Assembly (NCBI GenBank): GCA_022563685.1
Contig: JADFMY010000003.1
Coordinates: 1-64,000, forward strand
Direction: 5' to 3'
DNA: 64,000 bases
Source: Pseudomonadota bacterium
GTDB lineage: Bacteria; Pseudomonadota; Gammaproteobacteria; GCA-001735895
Below the pieces are notes generated by a model. That model had not been told where the DNA came from, ran no database searches, and worked only from the letters and a program-made list of their open reading frames with translations. Positions 5,900 through 43,744 of this stretch are shown piece after piece. Every line of letters starts with the position of its first letter. Position 1 is the stretch's first letter. The translations under genes and the position numbers were made by a program.

Positions 5900-6030
5900 G
5901 ATAAAAAGTTCAAATATTACCGGCATTAGGGCCGGTATAATTAATAATAATTCGATTGATTAGGGGAAGAGAATTCGCCCCGCTAAATAATCCCGAAAAC
6001 TGAGGAAACAACCCTCCCGGCCAGGCTCTC

Positions 6031-6957
6031 CTAGGTCCCTAACTTCACCCCGGTTTCAAGTCCATTCGATGCCGCGTATTCTGCGGCACTAATCTTGCCT
6101 TCCCCGGCCGGGCGTACCCGCGAAATTAATATACCACCATCATCACCCGCAGATACAAGAATTCCCGCATCGCTTACTTCAGCTACGGTACCGGCTTCTC
6201 CGTTAACCGATTCAGTTTTTCGAGCATCGTATATTTGCACGCTTACACCATCGACAGTGCTCCAGGCTCCTGGCTGAGGATTTGCTGCTCGAATTGTGTT
6301 GTAAATATCCTGGGCGGATTTACTCCAGTCAATCTCTACCTGTGCTTTACCAAACCAGGATTCATAGCTGCCCTCGTCGAGGTTTTGCGCTTGTTTGGGG
6401 GCAGTGCCCGCTTTAACCAGATCGAGTGATTCAATCATCGCATCTACACCCATAGGGAATAATTTATTGAAGTAGACATCCCCCAGAGTATCGTCTGGCC
6501 CTATATCACACTCTTTCTGCATTAAAATTGGGCCTTCGTCCAGCCCTGCATTAGGCCAGAATATCGTTAACCCGGTGCGTGTGGCGCCCATCGCAATCGG
6601 CCAGTTTATCGATGAGGGTCCGCGGTGCATTGGTAATAACGAAGGGTGATATTGAAAGGAGCCAAGCCTGGGGGCATCCAGTACTGACTCGGGTACCAAT
6701 AACAAAACGTAAGCCATGATGCAGATATCTGCTTCAAAGGATTGCATCAACTCAAGTGATTCAGGCGTTTTCCATGATGCGGGTTGGTGAACCGGCAAGC
6801 CTTTTTCCAGAGCCAGTTGTTTCAATGGATCTAGTGGTTTACCCTCTTTATCGGGTGCCGTGCAAATTGCAACAATATTTTCACCACGTTCGAGCAGACG
6901 TTCGAGAACCGCTTTCCCAAATGTTTGTTGCCCATGAACTACTATACGCATATCCAC
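6031..6957 (-). CDS. Formyltransferase family protein resembling the hydrolase domain of 10-formyl-THF dehydrogenase
   Basis: YHPSLLPMHRGPSSINW, IFWPNAGLDEGPILMQKECDIGPDDT closely resemble the ALDH1L1/FDH N-terminal domain; the catalytic-type His and Asp motifs are retained. Confidence 0.85.
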   Translation of the reverse strand: MDMRIVVHGQQTFGKAVLERLLERGENIVAICTAPDKEGKPLDPLKQLALEKGLPVHQPASWKTPESLELMQSFEADICIMAYVLLLVPESVLDAPRLGSFQYHPSLLPMHRGPSSINWPIAMGATRTGLTIFWPNAGLDEGPILMQKECDIGPDDTLGDVYFNKLFPMGVDAMIESLDLVKAGTAPKQAQNLDEGSYESWFGKAQVEIDWSKSAQDIYNTIRAANPQPGAWSTVDGVSVQIYDARKTESVNGEAGTVAEVSDAGILVSAGDDGGILISRVRPAGEGKISAAEYAASNGLETGVKLGT

Positions 6958-32969: not shown

Positions 32970-33842
32970 TCAAGCGTCAATTCTTACGTTTTGTCTGCGT
33001 ACTAACCGTTGCATCATCCGCAAATCTTTACTGGTCAATTGAAATGCAGCATCGACCCAGATTTTCGCAACTTCAATTAATTCGTCATAACTAATCTTGT
33101 TACAAATATCGCGCACCTTTCTAATCGCACTATAGGAATTTGAATAACGATTCGCGGCCTTGATGTATTTATAGACTTCCATTTCTCCTTTACCTTTTTC
33201 AGCGAGGATATCGACTATGCCCATTTCAAATAATTCTTCTGCAGTGTACAGCTTACCGCTGAGAATAATTTTTTCAGCCAGGGAAGTGCCCACCTTTCTA
33301 GATAGCAATGAATAGGCCCCCATACCTGGGAACAGATTAAACAAAACTTCGGGCAATCCCATTTTTACGCCTTTTTCTGCAATCACCACATTACTGGCCA
33401 AGGCTGCTTCAAATCCTCCACCAAGTGCATCACCCTGAACCAGAGCGATGGTAGTCAGCTCACAATCCAGGTGGTTCATATTTTCATGCAATATATCGAT
33501 GCACTTGATTGCATAATTGAACAAACCCTCCCGATCATTTTGATCGATACAGCGTTTGAACAGGTTCAGATCTCCACCCAGATTAAATACACCATCGACA
33601 TCTGAGCCAATAATAACGTAATCATATTTTTCACCCTTACTCTCGTGCATTTCTTCCTTGATAGTGCGAATATAATTGTGAAACTCAGATAGCAGCCTGG
33701 GAGTAAAACAAGGTCTTGGTTCGCTTTTCATCAAACACCAGGAAATTTTGTATTTGCTATCGTAATGGATCCTTAGGTGCTTTTCCGGTGCTTCGCTAGG
33801 TAGGAAATGAGTTGATTGATTTAATAGTGCTACGTTGCTCAT
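32970..33842 (-). CDS. rpfF: DSF synthase-like crotonase (RpfF homolog)
   Basis: PRPCFTPRLL, GVFNLGGDLNLFKRCI, ALVQGDALGGGFEAALASNVVIAEKG, GLPEVLFNLFPGMGAYSLLSRKVG; both catalytic-type Glu motifs retained; next to rpfC. Confidence 0.93.
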   Translation of the reverse strand: MSNVALLNQSTHFLPSEAPEKHLRIHYDSKYKISWCLMKSEPRPCFTPRLLSEFHNYIRTIKEEMHESKGEKYDYVIIGSDVDGVFNLGGDLNLFKRCIDQNDREGLFNYAIKCIDILHENMNHLDCELTTIALVQGDALGGGFEAALASNVVIAEKGVKMGLPEVLFNLFPGMGAYSLLSRKVGTSLAEKIILSGKLYTAEELFEMGIVDILAEKGKGEMEVYKYIKAANRYSNSYSAIRKVRDICNKISYDELIEVAKIWVDAAFQLTSKDLRMMQRLVRRQNVRIDA

Positions 33843-34309: not shown

Positions 34310-34510
34310 TTAATCCTGCTCTTCAATCCATGCCATTTGAATCGCTTCCAGTATTTTTTCACTCGACCTTTCTGGTTCATCGTCGAAGTCATCCAGTGCA
34401 CACACCCACGCGTGCAAATCGGTAAATCGGATATATTGTGGGTCGACATCGTCATGAATTTCCGATAATTCGATGGCTAATTCCAGCGTATCTGTCCATT
34501 TTAAACTCAT
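34310..34510 (-). CDS. iscX: Fe-S cluster assembly protein IscX
   Basis: 66 aa; MSLKWTDTLELAIELSEIHDDVDPQYIRFTDLHAWV; terminal gene of isc operon. Confidence 0.93.
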   Translation of the reverse strand: MSLKWTDTLELAIELSEIHDDVDPQYIRFTDLHAWVCALDDFDDEPERSSEKILEAIQMAWIEEQD

Positions 34511-34537: not shown

Positions 34538-34876
34538 TCAATGAATTTCCGACACCATGTTAATCGTGTATTTAGGTATCTCAATGACTAGTGGCTCGTC
34601 ACCCACAATCGCCTGACAACTCAGTCTCGAATCCATATCGAGCCCCCAGGCCTTGTCAAGGTAATCGTCCTCATCTTCACTCGATTCTTCCAGAGAATCG
34701 ATACCTTCACGAACATAAACATGACAGGTCGTGCAGGCGCATGATTTTTCACAGGCATGTTCAATTTCGATACCGTTACTGAGCAGGGCATCACACAGGC
34801 TAATACCGGGTTCTACTTTGACGACAGCGCCCTCGGGACAGATTTCCTCGTGTGGCAGAATGATTATTTCGGGCAT
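34538..34876 (-). CDS. fdx: ISC-type [2Fe-2S] ferredoxin
   Basis: EHACEKSCACTTCHVYVREG, AWGLDMDSRLSCQA. Confidence 0.95.
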   Translation of the reverse strand: MPEIIILPHEEICPEGAVVKVEPGISLCDALLSNGIEIEHACEKSCACTTCHVYVREGIDSLEESSEDEDDYLDKAWGLDMDSRLSCQAIVGDEPLVIEIPKYTINMVSEIH

Positions 34877-34900: not shown

Positions 34901-36772
34901 TTACAGATCCACCTCGTCTACCTGCTTGCCCGCGAGCATCTGCTGAACACTGGCATTCATGCGTTTAGCCACGTAGGTTTCGCTCTCATTTTCCAACGCC
35001 TTAATTGATTTTTTCAGTCTCTTCGCGCAGGCTGTATCGATCAGGACTTCCAGTTGATCCCGTGTCTGAACGATATTGCTCATCTCTGAATCACTGAGTA
35101 ACAATGCGCCATCGATGGCTAAAGCGGCGTCGATAGCCTGTATGACTCGCCTGGCCGCCACCTGCTGCTCCTTGAGCAATCTTGCGGAGATATCTTCATG
35201 GGCATGATCCATCGAATCTCTTAACATGGACTCGATCTCACTGTCGGTTAAGCCGTAAGAGGGCTTAACGACGATATCTGCAGTGATACCACTGCTTGTT
35301 TCCTCGGCCGCGACCGACATGAGCCCATCGGCGTCTACCTGGTAACTGACCCTGATGCGTGCAGCACCGGCAACCATGGGCGGAAACCCGCGTAGCTCGA
35401 ATCTGGCTAATGACCGACAATCGGAAACCAGCTCTCTTTCTCCCTGTAGAACATGAATTGACATCGAAGTCTGGCCGTCCTTGAAGGTCGTAAACTCCTG
35501 GGCTCTCGATACGGGAATAGGCGTGTTACGGTTTATTATTTTTTCACTCAATCCGCCCATCGTTTCAATGCAAAGCGAAAGCGGCAGCACATCGAGTAGC
35601 AGCATCTCTTCATCGGGCCGATTACCCGCCAGCACATTAGCCTGAATCGCAGCACCTATGGCTACCACCCGGTCCGGGTCCAGGTCAGCCATGGGCTTGC
35701 GTTCGAAAAACTCGCCAACCATTTGATATACCTTTGGAATCCGCGTCGAGCCACCAACCATCAGAACATCGTCGATTTGTTGTTTGCTGAGATCGGCGTC
35801 ACGCAATACGCGCCGGCATGACTTCAGGGTTTTATCGATCAACGGCCGGATCAATTCAGTCATTTGTTCGCGGCTAATTTCACCCTGCCATTGGCAGCCA
35901 TCGTGCCCAACATCGATTTCAGCAATATCATGATAAGTTAAATACTCCTTGGCATTCCTGGCGGCTATCAGTATTTTTCTTGCCAGTATCGCGCCAATAT
36001 CTTTAAAACCGGCACGCGATATAATCCATTCGCCTAGCGCATGATCCATATCGTCACCGCCCAGAGCGCTATCGCCACCCGTGGCTAACACTTCAAACAC
36101 ACCCTTGTTCAAGCGCAATATAGAAATATCGAATGTGCCGCCTCCCAGGTCGTACACCGCGATGATTCCATCATTTTTCTGGTCCAGACCGTAGGCTACC
36201 GCCGCCGCGGTAGGCTCATTGAGCAAGCGGAACACATTCAATTGAGCAAGCCTGGCGGCATCCCGGGTTGCCTGGCGTTGGGCATCGTCGAAATAGGCGG
36301 GTACGGTAATTACGACGCCATACAGTTCGTCGTCCAGCGATTGTTGCGCACGCGTTGCCAGGGCCTTTAAAATTTCTGCAGAAACTTCTACCGCACTGAC
36401 CAGCCCTCTGGAAGTTTGAATTCTGGGTACATTCGAATTGGTATCGGTTTCAAACCGATAGAGCATACTATCGCCCAACTGCCTGATATCTTCGATACCC
36501 CTGCCCATCAGTCTTTTTATCGAGGAAATCGTATTGAGCGGATCGCCTGTTTGCATTTGTTGCGCCGCCTGACCCACTAAAATTTTATCTTCGCCCAGGT
36601 GAACAATCGACGGGAGTAAATGCTGACCGGTACCGTCAGGCAAGGTCTTTGTCTCGCCGTTTCGTACCATGGCTACCAGTGAGTTGGTTGTACCCAGATC
36701 GATCCCGGCCGAGTAGCGGTGTTGGAGAGGGGCTGTAGAATGCCCAGGTTCAGTGATCTGTAAAAGCGCCAT
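34901..36772 (-). CDS. hscA: Fe-S protein assembly chaperone HscA
   Basis: [34 protein letters not shown]; between hscB and fdx. Confidence 0.95.
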
Positions 36773-36786
36773 GTTAAGATATGTTG

Positions 36787-37341
36787 CTAACCCAACTCTT
36801 CTTCGAGTTCGAATTGGAATTCCATCAGTTGATCCAGCACTCGTTGGATAAACTGCATTTTACGGCAGCTCTGTCTAGCTGCATTTAACTTTCCCTGGCC
36901 GAAGCAGGATTCAAACTCATTACTGTACTCCTGATTTTTTAAACGCAGTTTTGCAGCAATTCGCTCGCAGCAATCAAGCGGACTTGGGTCAGTACGGCAC
37001 TCATCCATTTCTTCCCTTATGCTGATTTGTTCCATCAGGAATTCGGTATCCGAGGTAGTTTGCGATTCATCGGACATGTCTTCACCGTTGATCTGGAGCA
37101 TATAACGCGCCCTTTTGACTGGATTCAACAGAGTTTCATAAGCCTGGTTGATCCAGGCAGCCTGCTGCACCGAAAGTCGCCTTTCCCGCTCGTTGGCATT
37201 AACGAATCGGTCAGGGTGAAATATGGACTGTAAGCGTTGCTGTTCTGAGTGTAATTTCCGGGTGTCGATATCGAAGCCTAAATTCAGACCAAAAAGCGCG
37301 AAATAGTCCTGTTTCAGGTCCAGTGTCGGCATTTTGAACAT
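36787..37341 (-). CDS. hscB: Co-chaperone HscB
   Basis: [37 protein letters not shown]. Confidence 0.93.
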
Positions 37342-37356
37342 CTATACTGAATTACC

Positions 37357-37680
37357 TTAAATAGTAAAACTTTCGCCACAACCACACTCGTCTTTGGCAT
37401 TAGGATTTTTAAATTGAAAACCCTCGTTCAATCCCACGCGGGCATAATCGACTTCGGTACCATCCAGGAACACCAGGCTCTTTCGATCTACCACGATCTT
37501 GACGCCCCTGGATTCGAATACTTCGTCGTCGCTTTGTAGTTCGTCGACGAACTCGATCACATAGGCCAGGCCCGAGCAGCCCGTGGTCTTGACCCCGAGA
37601 CGCAAGCCAATGCCCTTGCCTCGATTAGCAAGAAATTGCTGAACCCTTGTCGCGGCAACATCTGTCAACTCAATCGCCAT
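37357..37680 (-). CDS. iscA: Fe-S assembly protein IscA
   Basis: [33 protein letters not shown]. Confidence 0.95.
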
Positions 37681-37693
37681 TTTCTAACCTCTA

Positions 37694-38842
37694 TCAAACC
37701 GCCACCTGGCGGATAACGGCTGGCAGCCTGTTAATCAATTCCTTCAACTTACTCACCAGTGCTTCAACTTCCTGCAAAGTGTTATTCGATCCAAAACTCA
37801 CACGTACAGCATTCAATGCCAGGTTATCGTCTATACCCATCGCTTTCAATACGTGACTCGGACTGGTGACTTCGCTATGACAGGCCGAGCCACTGGACAA
37901 TGCAAACCCTGCTCTGTCCAGTTCCATTAACAATGTCTCTCCGTGATAGTATGGCAATGAAAAGTAAGTAGTATTGGGCAGGCGCTCTAGCTCACGCCCA
38001 AAAATCACCACGCCAGGAATTGCTGCCAACCTGGTTTCAAGTACTTCTCTCAATTGTGTTAGATGATGACGTTTTTGTTGCATTTCAAGCGCCGCAAGTT
38101 GTGCCGCCTTACCCAGGCCAGCAATCATCGCTACATTTTCGGTGCCGGCACGACGATTTTTTTCCTGCTCGCCTCCACTAATCAGAATGTTTCCGGGGTT
38201 TTTATTTACGATCAGTGCACCTATACCCTGCGGACCCTGCATTTTATGCCCCGACAGAGTCAGGGCTCCAACCCCCAATTGCACCATATCGACTGGTATC
38301 TTGCCCACCGCCTGCGTGGCATCGGTATGCACCAGGCAAGTCTTCGGATCGACCAGCTCTCCAAGTTCTTTCACTGGTTGAATGACGCCGGTTTCGTTAT
38401 TCGCGAGTATGACCGACAGCATTTGAGGATTATTTTCCTTCAATACCGACTGCGCCAGGTCCAGATCGACCTGTCCCTCCGTATTAACTTTGAGGTGGGT
38501 GACTCGGATTCCTGATTTTTCGAGCTGTACTAAGGGCTGTAATATACTGGGATGCTCGATCTCAGTGCTTACTACCGGACGCGAGTCATCAGGGTCGGCA
38601 AAACCCTTAAGCATTAAATTGTTGGCTTCAGAACCGCCGGAAGTAAAAATAACCGATTCGACCGAGCCGTTAACCAGTTCGGCTAACTGCCCTCTCGCCG
38701 TTTCTATCGCCGATCGTGCCATACGGCCTGTGCTGTGCAAACTCGATGCATTGCCAATCGGTTGACGCAGGCAGGATGAGATCGTCTCAAGCACTTCGGG
38801 ATGCATCGGCGAGCTTGCATTATGATCAAAATAGGTTTGCAT
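37694..38842 (-). CDS. iscS: Cysteine desulfurase in iscS position (short, NifS/IscS-like)
   Basis: PLP enzyme: HTDATQAVGKIPVDM, LSGHKMQGPQGIGAL, SSGSACHSEVTSPSHVLKAMG. 382 aa, without the C-terminal extension of canonical IscS. Confidence 0.9.
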   Translation of the reverse strand: MQTYFDHNASSPMHPEVLETISSCLRQPIGNASSLHSTGRMARSAIETARGQLAELVNGSVESVIFTSGGSEANNLMLKGFADPDDSRPVVSTEIEHPSILQPLVQLEKSGIRVTHLKVNTEGQVDLDLAQSVLKENNPQMLSVILANNETGVIQPVKELGELVDPKTCLVHTDATQAVGKIPVDMVQLGVGALTLSGHKMQGPQGIGALIVNKNPGNILISGGEQEKNRRAGTENVAMIAGLGKAAQLAALEMQQKRHHLTQLREVLETRLAAIPGVVIFGRELERLPNTTYFSLPYYHGETLLMELDRAGFALSSGSACHSEVTSPSHVLKAMGIDDNLALNAVRVSFGSNNTLQEVEALVSKLKELINRLPAVIRQVAV

Positions 38843-38847
38843 AGATT

Positions 38848-39306
38848 CTACAGCTGGTTATGCGAGTTTTGCCGCAAGTCATGGTTGCGTGACAATGCTT
38901 TGACCTCCTCGCTTTCTATCATATCCGCAAGCGAAATGGTGGTCAGATATTCCTGGATCTGATCGCTCAATTCCTCCCAGAGCTGTTCGGTCAGGCAGGG
39001 TTCATAATAAGCTGAATTCTGCCCGGCATCCTTGTTGGTCACCTTCATTTTATCGTCTACCGCATTGATTACATCCGCTATACAGACATCCTGCGGCGAA
39101 TTACCGAGACTATAACCACCACCGGGCCCCCTGGTACTCACCACGAGGTTATTACGCCGCATTTTGGCAAACAATTGTTCCAGATATGACAAAGAGATGC
39201 CCTGACGTACCGAAATATCAGCCAGTGAAACTGGCCCCTGGTCGGAGTGCATAACCATGTCCAGCAGCGAAGTCACTGCATAACGACTCTTGGTGGATAA
39301 GCGCAT
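38848..39306 (-). CDS. iscR: Rrf2 family regulator IscR, lacking most Fe-S ligands
   Basis: MRLSTKSRYAVTSLLDMV, GISLSYLEQLFAKMRRNNLV, RGPGGGYSLG; canonical position. Ligand loop reads KVTNKDAGQNSAYYEPCLTEQLW. Confidence 0.93.
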   Translation of the reverse strand: MRLSTKSRYAVTSLLDMVMHSDQGPVSLADISVRQGISLSYLEQLFAKMRRNNLVVSTRGPGGGYSLGNSPQDVCIADVINAVDDKMKVTNKDAGQNSAYYEPCLTEQLWEELSDQIQEYLTTISLADMIESEEVKALSRNHDLRQNSHNQL

Positions 39307-39337
39307 AAGAATTACTGCCTGGTGATAATTAGTACAA

Positions 39338-39368
39338 GTATACAATCCTGACTAAATTGGTCAACTAT
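39338..39368 (-). promoter_or_regulatory. isc operon promoter with IscR type-1-like site overlapping -35
   Basis: Minus strand ATAGTTGACCAATTTAGTCAGGATTGTATACT: -35 TTGACC, 16-nt spacer, -10 TATACT; ATAGTTGACCAATTTAGTCAGGATT resembles the E. coli type 1 motif. Confidence 0.7.
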
Positions 39369-39417: not shown

Positions 39418-40140
39418 TCAGGATTTATATTTTTCGACCGAACTGAGGATTCCCCTGAGAATGTTGACTTCAGTTAGGCTCAGGTCGATTCTTTGATACA
39501 GGCGTCTCAAGCGTTGCATCAACAGCCCGGGGTTGTCCGGATCGAGAAACCGGGTCGTTACCAGCACCTGTTCAAGATGCGCGAAGTAACCTTGCAGATC
39601 ACCGCTCGTAGCGATGGGTTCACTCGATTCCAGCGTCCGTGCTTCTGATCCATTATCAACCATCCGAAAGATTTCGTAACAAAGCACCTGGATCGCAGAC
39701 GCGACATTGAGCGAGTTGAATTCCGGGTTGGTCGGGATACTCACGCTAAAGTGACAGAGTTGTAGCTCCTCGTTGCTCAGGCCGGAGTGTTCGGGTCCAA
39801 ATACCAGGGCTACCTTCGACTGGTCACTTAAACGCCATATTTTCTGCGCCATTTGTTCTGGACTCAATTCGGGCCAGGGCATTGAACGACTACGCGCGCT
39901 GGTCGCAATCACCAGTGCGCAGTCTTTGATTGCCTGTTGCAGGCTATCCGTAGTTTTTCTCTGATCCAGGATCGCATGAGCGCCCGAGGCCCTGGCGTAA
40001 GCTATTTCACCTACCGGACACTGAGGGTTTACCATTACCAGGTTGGGAACACACATGTTGTGCATCGCTCTCGCAGCGGCTCCGATATTACCGGGGTGAG
40101 TGGTTCCTGCCATTACGATACTTATATTATCTATTTTCAT
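39418..40140 (-). CDS. trmJ: tRNA (cytidine/uridine-2'-O-)-methyltransferase TrmJ
   Basis: AGTTHPGNIGAAARAMHNM, LVFGPEHSGLSNEEL, NPEFNSLNVASAIQVLCYE; canonical iscR neighbour. Confidence 0.95.
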   Translation of the reverse strand: MKIDNISIVMAGTTHPGNIGAAARAMHNMCVPNLVMVNPQCPVGEIAYARASGAHAILDQRKTTDSLQQAIKDCALVIATSARSRSMPWPELSPEQMAQKIWRLSDQSKVALVFGPEHSGLSNEELQLCHFSVSIPTNPEFNSLNVASAIQVLCYEIFRMVDNGSEARTLESSEPIATSGDLQGYFAHLEQVLVTTRFLDPDNPGLLMQRLRRLYQRIDLSLTEVNILRGILSSVEKYKS

Positions 40141-40276: not shown

Positions 40277-41071
40277 ATGCAACCCATGTTGAATATTGCA
40301 GTTCGAGCGGCCCGAATCGCAGGTGATTATATCATCCGAAAATTAAATCGCTTACCGGATTTAAAGGTTGAGACCAAGGCGCGAAATGATTACGTCACCG
40401 AGGTCGACCGCCAGGCAGAAGAGCGTATTATCGACACGCTACTCAAGGCTTACCCAAACCACGGCATACTGGCAGAAGAGACTGGCGAGACCCTGGGTAG
40501 CGAGGCCTATCGTTGGATTATCGACCCGCTCGATGGCACCACCAATTTCATACATGGCTTCCCTCACTTTGCGGTATCGATCGCCTGTCAGCACGAGAGT
40601 CGGTTGGAACACGCGGTTATCTACGATCCGTTTAAACAGGAATTATTTACCGCCAGCCGTGGCGATGGCGCCACATTAAATAACCGGCGCATTCGTGTCA
40701 GTAGTATAAAATCCACCACCGGCGCTTTACTGGGAACCGGCTTTCCGTTTAGACACCATGAGCAATTGAATGCATTTCTAAAACTATTCAGCGAATTTTT
40801 TACCACAGCAACCGATATACGCCGCGCCGGTTCGGCCGCACTAGACCTTGCTTATGTTGCCGCAGGCAGGCTCGATGGTTTTTGGGAAGATGGCCTGAAA
40901 GCCTGGGACATCGCGGCCGGCGCCCTGATCATCCGCGAAGCCGGTGGCATCGTCACCGATTACAATGGCGATGAGCATTACCTTGAACTCGGACAGGTTA
41001 TTGCAGGCAACCCCAAAATACTGAGTGAAATGCTAAGGAAAATACGCCAGCACACCCACCAGGGCAGTTAA
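40277..41071 (+). CDS. suhB: Inositol monophosphatase family protein SuhB
   Basis: ILAEETGE, WIIDPLDGTTNFIHGFPHFAVSIA, WDIAAGALIIREAGG. Confidence 0.95.
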   Translation: MQPMLNIAVRAARIAGDYIIRKLNRLPDLKVETKARNDYVTEVDRQAEERIIDTLLKAYPNHGILAEETGETLGSEAYRWIIDPLDGTTNFIHGFPHFAVSIACQHESRLEHAVIYDPFKQELFTASRGDGATLNNRRIRVSSIKSTTGALLGTGFPFRHHEQLNAFLKLFSEFFTTATDIRRAGSAALDLAYVAAGRLDGFWEDGLKAWDIAAGALIIREAGGIVTDYNGDEHYLELGQVIAGNPKILSEMLRKIRQHTHQGS

Positions 41072-41274: not shown

Positions 41275-41742
41275 ATGCCCACATTCGTACGTACAGAAAA
41301 GTGTGACGGTTGCAAGGGTCAGGATAAAACCGCCTGCGAGTATATTTGCCCCCATGACCTGATGAAACTCGATAAGGATGGGTCGGCGACCGGCCACGTC
41401 ATGAAGGCGTATAACCAGGAGCCCGAGCAATGCTGGGAATGTTACTCCTGCGTCAAAATATGCCCGCAAAATGCGATCGAATGCCGACATTATGCGGATA
41501 TCGTACCCTTGGGCGGCTCGGTACAACCGCTACGTGGCAGCGACTCGATCATGTGGACCATCAAATTTCGCAATGGCAACATGAAACGCTTTAAATTCCC
41601 GATCAGAACCACCCCGGAAGGTTCGATCGACCCTTATGCAGGCAAACCAGATGCGGACATGTCCAAAATCGAAGAGCCTGGTTTCTTTTGCCAGGACAAG
41701 GGTTTTCGCGCGGGTGATCCCAGCGAACTGATTTGTCTATAA
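41275..41742 (+). CDS. aprB: Adenylylsulfate reductase beta subunit
   Basis: MPTFVRTEKCDGCKGQDKTACEYICPHDLMKLD, WECYSCVKICPQNAIECRHYADIVPLG. Confidence 0.96.
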   Translation: MPTFVRTEKCDGCKGQDKTACEYICPHDLMKLDKDGSATGHVMKAYNQEPEQCWECYSCVKICPQNAIECRHYADIVPLGGSVQPLRGSDSIMWTIKFRNGNMKRFKFPIRTTPEGSIDPYAGKPDADMSKIEEPGFFCQDKGFRAGDPSELICL

Positions 41743-41764
41743 CCCCGGCAACTGGAGAATAATT

Positions 41765-43744
41765 ATGGCAGGCGAATTTGGTAATCCGGAAATTGTAGAA
41801 GAATCGGTTGATATTTTGATGATTGGCGGCGGCATGGCCTGTTGCGGTGCTGCGTTTGAAATCATGCAATGGGCTAAAGATACCGATCTTAAAATTAAGC
41901 TGGTTGATAAGGCGGCGATGGACCGATCTGGTGCCGTAGCACAGGGTTTATCGGCGATTAATACTTACATAGGCCCGGACCAGGATCCAGCGGACTATAC
42001 TCGCATGGTATCCAATGATTTGATGGGCATAACGCGCGATGACCTCGCTTACGACCTCGGTCGGCATGTCGATGAGTCGGTACATCTGTTCGAGGAATGG
42101 GGTTTGCCGATCTGGAAGACCGACGAAAACGGTGAACGCTTCGATGGATCGAAGGGTTTGACACCGCTTAAAGATGGTGGCAAGCCCGTACGTTCGGGCA
42201 AGTGGCAGATTATGATTAACGGCGAATCCTACAAATGGATTGTCGCCGAGGCGGCCAAGAAATCACTCGGCAGCGAAAATATCGAAGAACGAATTTTCAT
42301 CGTCAAACTGATCAATGACAAAAACGATCCTGGCCGTATTGCCGGTGCCGCTGGATTTTCTGTACGCGAAAACAAGATCGTAGTGATCACTGCCAAGGTT
42401 ATATTGCTGGCGGCCGGTGGCTGCGTGAATATTTTCCGTCCCCGCTCTATCGGTGAGGGCATGGGTCGTGCCTGGTACCCGGTATGGAATGCCGGTTCGA
42501 CCTACGCGATGGCTGCCGAGGCTGGCGCCGAACTCACCCTGATGGAAAATCGCTTCGTCCCTACCCGCTTTAAAGACGGCTACGGCCCGGTAGGCGCCTG
42601 GTTCCTGTTATTCAAGGCAAAAGCCATCAATTCACTCGGCGAAGATTACATGGTGCGTAATGCAGAGATGCTGAACGACTACCCGCCTTACGGCCAGGCT
42701 ATTGTCCCCCCGGCCTGCCTTCGCAACCATCTGATGCTGAAGGAAATGCGCGAAGGCCGCGGTCCTATCTATATGGATACCGTAACCGCGCTGGCAAATT
42801 TGCGTGAAAAGCTAAGCCCGCGTGAAGTCAAGCACCTCGAGGCCGAAGCCTGGGAAGATTTTCTCGATATGTGCATCGGGCAATGTGGAATCTGGGTCGG
42901 TGAAAATATCGAACCCGAAAAACAAATGTCTGAACTAATGCCGACCGAACCCTATCTGCTCGGTTCGCATTCGGGTTGTTGTGGTATCTGGACTTCAGGA
43001 CCAACCGACCTCGGTGCGCCAACCGAAGAAACCATGGAAGGCGTACCCGATCATCTACCGTCGGGCTGGAACTGGGGCTACCGGGGGATGACAACCATAA
43101 ACGGACTGTTTACCGCAGGAGACGGCGTTGGCGCGTCCGGACACAAGTTTTCGTCGGGCTCGCATGCGGAGGGTCGTATCGCCGCCAAGTCAATGGTTAA
43201 ATACTGCCTGGATCACGACTATACGCCTGAACTGGACACTCCGGTGGACGACATTGTAGCCTCGATTTATCAGCCGGTAAAAACCTACCTCGAGTTTAAG
43301 GATTACTCTACCGCAATCGATGTTAATCCAAACTATATTACACCTAAGATGCTGCAGTTCAGACTGCAAAAACTCATGGATGAATATGTCGCGGGAATCT
43401 CTACTTACTACACGACCAACGCAGAAATGCTCAGGATAGCTGGTGAAAAAATGAACATGCTCAAAGAAGACGCGCTAAAGATGCGCGCAAAGGATTTGCA
43501 CGAGTTGCTTCGCGCCTGGGAAAACCACCATCGCATACTGACCGCCGAAGCACATATCAAACATATCGAGTTTCGTCAAGAGTCACGTTACCCTGGTTTT
43601 TATTATCGCTCAGACAAGAATTTCATCGATGAAGAGAACTGGCATTGTTTTGTCAATTCGATTTACGACAAGGAAACCGGTGAGTGGACCTGTTTCAAGC
43701 GTGCACACAAAGACCTGGTCGACAAGTCTGTATTGTTCAAATAA
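41765..43744 (+). CDS. aprA: Adenylylsulfate reductase alpha subunit
   Basis: DILMIGGGMACCGAAFE, MDRSGAVAQGLSAINTYIG, LMENRFVPTRFKDGYGPVGAWFLLFKA. Confidence 0.97.
   Translation: MAGEFGNPEIVEESVDILMIGGGMACCGAAFEIMQWAKDTDLKIKLVDKAAMDRSGAVAQGLSAINTYIGPDQDPADYTRMVSNDLMGITRDDLAYDLGRHVDESVHLFEEWGLPIWKTDENGERFDGSKGLTPLKDGGKPVRSGKWQIMINGESYKWIVAEAAKKSLGSENIEERIFIVKLINDKNDPGRIAGAAGFSVRENKIVVITAKVILLAAGGCVNIFRPRSIGEGMGRAWYPVWNAGSTYAMAAEAGAELTLMENRFVPTRFKDGYGPVGAWFLLFKAKAINSLGEDYMVRNAEMLNDYPPYGQAIVPPACLRNHLMLKEMREGRGPIYMDTVTALANLREKLSPREVKHLEAEAWEDFLDMCIGQCGIWVGENIEPEKQMSELMPTEPYLLGSHSGCCGIWTSGPTDLGAPTEETMEGVPDHLPSGWNWGYRGMTTINGLFTAGDGVGASGHKFSSGSHAEGRIAAKSMVKYCLDHDYTPELDTPVDDIVASIYQPVKTYLEFKDYSTAIDVNPNYITPKMLQFRLQKLMDEYVAGISTYYTTNAEMLRIAGEKMNMLKEDALKMRAKDLHELLRAWENHHRILTAEAHIKHIEFRQESRYPGFYYRSDKNFIDEENWHCFVNSIYDKETGEWTCFKRAHKDLVDKSVLFK

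Follow-up and report, generated by a model that had tools for sequence, protein, structure and literature searches.

Three of the four residues that hold the [2Fe-2S] cluster in Escherichia coli IscR are replaced in the IscR encoded beside trmJ throughout a family of sulfur-oxidising marine Gammaproteobacteria. The altered protein is kept without exception in at least 37 species together with a second, intact copy, IscR1, to which cluster sensing has probably passed. The ligand replacement and its fixation, the purifying selection on the altered gene (iscR2 hereafter), the pairing of paralogues, the synteny and the conservation of operators come directly from the analysis. As to what this arrangement achieves, we see an evenly balanced case for a division of IscR's work, in which IscR1, as holo-sensor, would repress both isc operons in trans and IscR2 would be a cluster-independent DNA-binding partner.

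The window operon and the ligand positions of IscR2

The window, i.e., the whole stretch of 64,000 nucleotides that was analysed, belongs to a 2.99-Mb draft assembly, 92% complete and 6% contaminated. It contains an isc operon headed by iscR2 and adjoining trmJ and suhB, a neighbourhood of the E. coli type, with the gene order suhB, trmJ, iscR2, iscS2, iscA, hscB, hscA, fdx and probable iscX, and with no iscU:

40277 to 41071, plus strand: suhB, divergent from trmJ; synteny marker
39418 to 40140, minus strand: trmJ, the conserved gene upstream, marking synteny with the isc locus of the E. coli type
38848 to 39306, minus strand: iscR2, Rrf2-family regulator with K92, S98, C104 and E107 instead of C-C-C-H
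37694 to 38842, minus strand: iscS2, NifS-like cysteine desulfurase of 382 aa, without the C-terminal tail of IscS1
37357 to 37680, minus strand: iscA (TIGR02011, above cut-off)
36787 to 37341, minus strand: hscB (TIGR00714, above cut-off)
34901 to 36772, minus strand: hscA (TIGR01991, above cut-off)
34538 to 34876, minus strand: fdx, ISC-type [2Fe-2S] ferredoxin (TIGR02007, above cut-off)
34310 to 34510, minus strand: probable iscX, 66 aa, the last gene of the operon, assigned from its translation and position

Elsewhere in the window, aprB-aprA (41275-43744; adenylylsulfate reductase) is consistent with a sulfur-oxidising lifestyle, and an enoyl-CoA hydratase-like protein (32970-33842) appears, by reading, to resemble RpfF-type DSF signal synthases.

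Translated from an ATG at 39306, IscR2 is a protein of 152 aa of the Rrf2/IscR type. It matches the Pfam Rrf2 profile with 124 bits. Against the NCBIfam IscR equivalog TIGR02010 it scores 173.7 bits, short of the curated threshold of 207.55, which the genome's canonical IscR1 narrowly misses as well (202.0 bits). The Rrf2 winged-helix fold and the IscR recognition helix are present according to profile, alignment and structure match, the closest PDB structure being 4hf1 (TM 0.74/0.86), and the recognition-helix residues S40, Y41, E43 and Q44, together with R59-G60-P61, are identical in the aligned IscR1 and IscR2.

Against the reference ligands of E. coli IscR (Cys92, Cys98, Cys104 and His107), IscR2 reads K-S-C-E instead of (Cys)3(His)1, exactly as the first-pass annotation of this DNA had proposed: Cys92 has become Lys, Cys98 Ser and His107 Glu, and Cys104 is kept. 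The same annotation supposed that a cluster could not be bound in the normal way, and this stands as far as the canonical site is concerned, which cannot form with three of its four ligands replaced. The analogy of E. coli points in the same direction, as the C92A replacement alone leaves IscR clusterless and the type-1 isc promoter PiscR no longer repressed; type-1 sites are bound only by [2Fe-2S]-IscR, whereas type-2 sites are also bound by the C92A or the triple-Ala protein (PMC12594620).

The replacement is a property of the whole family. Our survey comprised 41 genomes of three genera, an order-wide search returning the identical 41, and a separate scan contributed the Gamma3 endosymbiont of Olavius algarvensis as well as numerous assemblies of sediment metagenomes. 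The ligand pattern [KR]-[SAPGT]-C-E occurs in 37 of 37 distinct IscR2 sequences and in all three genera: residue 92 is K in 31 and R in 6, residue 98 is S, A, P, G or T, and residues 104 and 107 are always C and E, within a stretch from 101 to 107 that reads [YF]EPCLTE in every one of the 37. The IscR2 of the Gamma3 symbiont shares the replacement. The one-off sequencing artefact for which the annotation had left room, or an assembly error, is excluded as the origin of K-S-C-E, since 37 distinct homologues from three genera concord. Among the other IscRs tabulated, which comprise the second paralogue and the remaining sequences of the class sample, C-C-C-H is found in 59 of 59, and the best extra-family matches inspected in the class sample (274 genomes) are all canonical at the ligands.

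Independent ligand losses were met only in two Halothiobacillus loci and in one alphaproteobacterium. The former (L119, near position 6001, and L122, near 3386) encode IscR-like proteins with a ligand-less L-S-N-Q in a different neighbourhood. The latter (L115, Minwuiaceae, 6001-6393) encodes an IscR with zero cysteines (L-A-L-A) upstream of iscS genes, and its nearest solved structure is the Dinoroseobacter shibae IscR, 7zpn.

The iscR2 gene is under strong purifying selection. Between close pairs dN/dS is about 0.01-0.24, lowest in residues 104-117 and in the HTH domain, and the pooled pN/pS is 0.08 for the DNA-binding domain, 0.49 for residues 92-103 and 0.04 for residues 104-117. Since K/R92 and Y/F101 to E107 are held while the remainder of the loop varies freely, the loop has been remade, not abandoned. 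Four family genomes are devoid of IscR2 (G008, G009, G026 and G036), and missing sequence explains all of them: in G008 the operon is truncated by the end of the contig, where hscA is situated, and in the other three the HscA orthologue was likewise not recovered.

A second isc locus and the relation of the paralogues

In the source genome, contig C164 carries a canonical iscR1 (C-C-C-H) followed by iscS1 and iscU and adjoining sdhCDAB; the relatives inspected have the identical arrangement sdhB-iscR1-iscS1-iscU. A close copy of iscR1-iscS1-iscU is found on contig C54, near-identical yet not identical to that of C164 (loci L008 and L007, respectively), and it may represent strain variation or a mixture, or contamination. 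A genome-wide loss of iscU is excluded by its presence on both contigs, so that the loss implied by the first-pass annotation proves to be local only: iscU is present at the second locus, accompanied by an iscS and a canonical iscR.

The two desulfurases differ as well. In the comparison of window positions 38102-38842 with L007 8217-9440, IscS2 is the shorter protein, NifS-like and with 382 aa, whereas IscS1 has 407 aa including a C-terminal tail that IscS2 lacks. In E. coli this tail of IscS contacts IscU, so that IscU probably works with IscS1.

Outgroup loci read trmJ-iscR-(iscS2)-iscS1-iscU-iscA-hscBA-fdx and their IscR is canonical. As these loci contain both iscS1 and iscU, the two genes were most likely lost from the trmJ locus within the family. 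In several other gammaproteobacterial families iscS2 also follows iscR at the trmJ locus, there alongside iscS1.

A tree of IscR sequences, built without the ligand-loop columns, separates IscR1-like from trmJ-linked proteins with a support of 99/95 and places IscR2 and E. coli IscR together on the trmJ-linked side, within which the branching order is not resolved. Judged by position and by side of the tree, IscR2 is the orthologue of E. coli IscR.

It had been suggested, as a check in related genomes, that loss of the ligands might go together with loss of iscU. The two do co-occur within the family; elsewhere they do not, as trmJ-type loci without iscU in other families (L141, L152, L154, L156 and L164) still encode C-C-C-H. 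Ligand loss as a result of iscU loss is therefore unsupported, and the two events are not tied.

Promoters and type-1 operators

Upstream of iscR2, AATASTTGACCAWWWTAGTCRGGATTGTATACT is near-invariant over 37 family promoters, with unconserved flanks. It holds a -35 and a -10 hexamer and, between and over them, a near match to a type-1 IscR site:

39344 to 39368, minus strand: IscR type-1-like operator ATAGTTGACCAATTTAGTCAGGATT, upstream of iscR2 and inside the promoter; core invariant in 37 of 37
39359 to 39364, minus strand: -35 hexamer TTGACC of the putative promoter, overlapping the operator; invariant in 37 promoters
39337 to 39342, minus strand: -10 hexamer TATACT of the putative promoter, 16 bp from the -35; invariant in 37 promoters

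Scored against the type-1 consensus, which we take to be that of the E. coli IscR site, the iscR2 operator has 2-4 mismatches; in the shuffled control, the best of 20 had 6-9. The site in the iscR1 promoters is even better. In the source genome, the operators of iscR1 and iscR2 are the only two sites with one mismatch or none to the search pattern; family-wide, the strict pattern matches both isc promoters and a reversed control pattern matches almost nothing. Seven genomes of genus g2 and one of g1 (L205-L212) have a further, well-preserved type-1 site 50-60 bp ahead of erpA, which is itself a recognised type-1 target of IscR in E. coli; the erpA promoter of the source genome has a degenerate site only, with 6 mismatches. 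The window operon keeps a predicted operator of the class that needs cluster-bound IscR in E. coli; if this rule applies here, holo-IscR1 would be the protein that recognises it in trans.

With E. coli IscR (TIGR02010; 4hf0, 4hf1, 4hf2 and 4chu), then, IscR2 has in common the fold, the recognition residues, the locus trmJ-iscR...hscBA-fdx and a type-1 operator in its own promoter. It differs in that C92, C98 and H107 have given way to K/R, a small residue and E, and its operon differs in that iscS1 and iscU are gone and a second, canonical IscR exists in the genome.

How the two regulators may share their work

The division of labour that we favour would involve two ancient paralogues. IscR1, with its (Cys)3(His)1 site, would be the Fe-S sensor and, in its holo form, would act through type-1 operators to repress the operon that encodes it and that of the window, as well as erpA in several relatives. 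IscR2, presumably without the canonical cluster and with its DNA-binding domain kept, would compete or dimerise with IscR1 on the shared regulon. The presence of a type-1 operator upstream of both isc operons supports this proposal. It is also favoured by the search of the source genome for a SUF system (SufB/D), which found none and so removes the best-known target of apo-IscR. Two observations speak against it. Glu43 is retained, and a clusterless IscR2 might therefore not bind the shared operators: in work of 2013 by Rajagopalan this residue reportedly keeps E. coli apo-IscR away from type-1 sites (PDB 4hf2 is the E43A mutant). Moreover, with its invariant [YF]EPCLTE and K/R92, the loop gives the impression of a working site and not of an empty one.

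These same residues give weight to a different proposal, a serious possibility although below an even chance, namely that IscR2 senses at the remade loop and is a signal-dependent repressor of its own type-1 operator. The signal could be an unorthodox Fe-S cluster to which Cys104 and Glu107 contribute along with further residues or another subunit; alternatively, it could be redox, persulfide or metal chemistry on Cys104. The invariance of K/R92, Y/F101, E102, P103, C104 and E107 over 37 sequences, with residues 104-117 the most constrained, would fit such a role, as would the invariant operator within the promoter of iscR2 itself, and the retention of Glu43 makes it less likely that IscR2 simply binds type-1 sites with no cofactor. 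However, potential ligands occupy only two of the four usual positions, and a Lys or Arg at 92 would bring a positive charge to the cluster site.

Known regulators with unusual cofactor sites bear on this proposal from both sides. The IscR of the Rhodobacteraceae (R. sphaeroides RSP_0443; D. shibae, 7zpn) is, like IscR2, a natural protein without the three ligand cysteines and retained in an Fe-S assembly operon. That of R. sphaeroides binds its cluster through a single cysteine, Cys142, essential and outside the loop, and represses only with the cluster (PMC4618611). Cys142 is not aligned with Cys104, and a C-terminal cysteine of this type is absent from IscR2, in which the loop residue Cys104 is the sole invariant cysteine. 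The R. sphaeroides protein further differs in sitting in the isc-suf operon as its IscR and in binding the Iron-Rhodo-box, and the IscR2 family in having Cys104, K/R92, E107, a canonical paralogue and type-1 operators. Among other Rrf2 proteins, RsrR of Streptomyces venezuelae and NsrR of S. coelicolor have an unusual cluster ligation that includes ligands from the other subunit. The ligands of RsrR are Glu8, His12 and His33, with one Cys. NsrR uses Asp8 as a ligand (PMC5411485). Ligation of the RsrR type is excluded for IscR2, in which positions 8 and 12 are Arg and Thr and position 33 is variable (Val or other).

Sensing at the loop could also be combined with a sharing of operators, IscR2 reading a signal other than [2Fe-2S] (persulfide, redox, metal or an unorthodox cluster) that would be joined to that of IscR1 at common sites; we consider this rather doubtful. 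CymR of Bacillus and Staphylococcus is a regulator with an Rrf2 fold that is active with no cluster at all. CymR (2y75) is a structural match to IscR2; its identity is much lower, about 30%, it governs cysteine metabolism, and IscR2 groups with IscR and not with CymR.

The first-pass annotation had offered a regulator locked in an apo-like state or sensing something else. The second half corresponds to the proposals just discussed; the first is not the sole reading, since the type-1 operator and Glu43 are kept and the single-Cys IscR of R. sphaeroides still binds an Fe-S cluster (PMC4618611). An apo-like IscR2, acting on type-2 sites only as clusterless E. coli IscR does, would agree with a ligand loss that mimics the type-2-binding C92A or triple-Ala proteins and with the retained recognition residues, Glu43 included. 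It is nonetheless unlikely, given that the classical apo-IscR target, the SUF operon, was not found in the genome and that the operator conserved at the promoter of iscR2 is of type 1.

The opposite lock, in which a salt bridge between Lys/Arg92 and Glu107 would replace the cluster and make IscR2 a constitutive type-1 repressor that caps both isc operons at a constant level, appears very unlikely. An invariant basic/acidic pair now occupies two positions next to the cluster of E. coli IscR, and the type-1 operator is invariant, but the K92-E107 pairing is not visible in the predicted model (pLDDT about 55-67 over residues 81-100), and the pair varies at neither position, so that covariation is uninformative. 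Finally, although the cofactor site was lost after duplication while the paralogue retained sensing, a functionless, decaying leftover is hardly credible in view of the strong purifying selection, the finding that all 37 reading frames are intact and share newly invariant residues, the conserved promoter and operator, and the assembly gaps that account for the family genomes without IscR2.

A literature search limited to open-access papers returned none on a ligand-less IscR paralogue in Gammaproteobacteria. A natural IscR without ligand cysteines is already known from the Rhodobacteraceae; what is new is ligand loss in Gammaproteobacteria, and in the very protein that position and tree side mark as orthologous to E. 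coli IscR, in a genome that also encodes an intact paralogue. The fixed new motif and the retained type-1 operators are likewise new.

IscR is the textbook regulator whose cluster sets the choice of operator. A sulfur-oxidising gammaproteobacterial family, with a complete ISC pathway divided over two loci and no SUF system detected in the source genome, constitutes a natural, long-lived experiment on this regulator: its E. coli-type orthologue, as we identify it, has lost the site and the paralogue has kept it, and the operators retained at both isc promoters belong to the class believed to depend on the cluster. This permits a direct test of the cluster dependence of IscR function.
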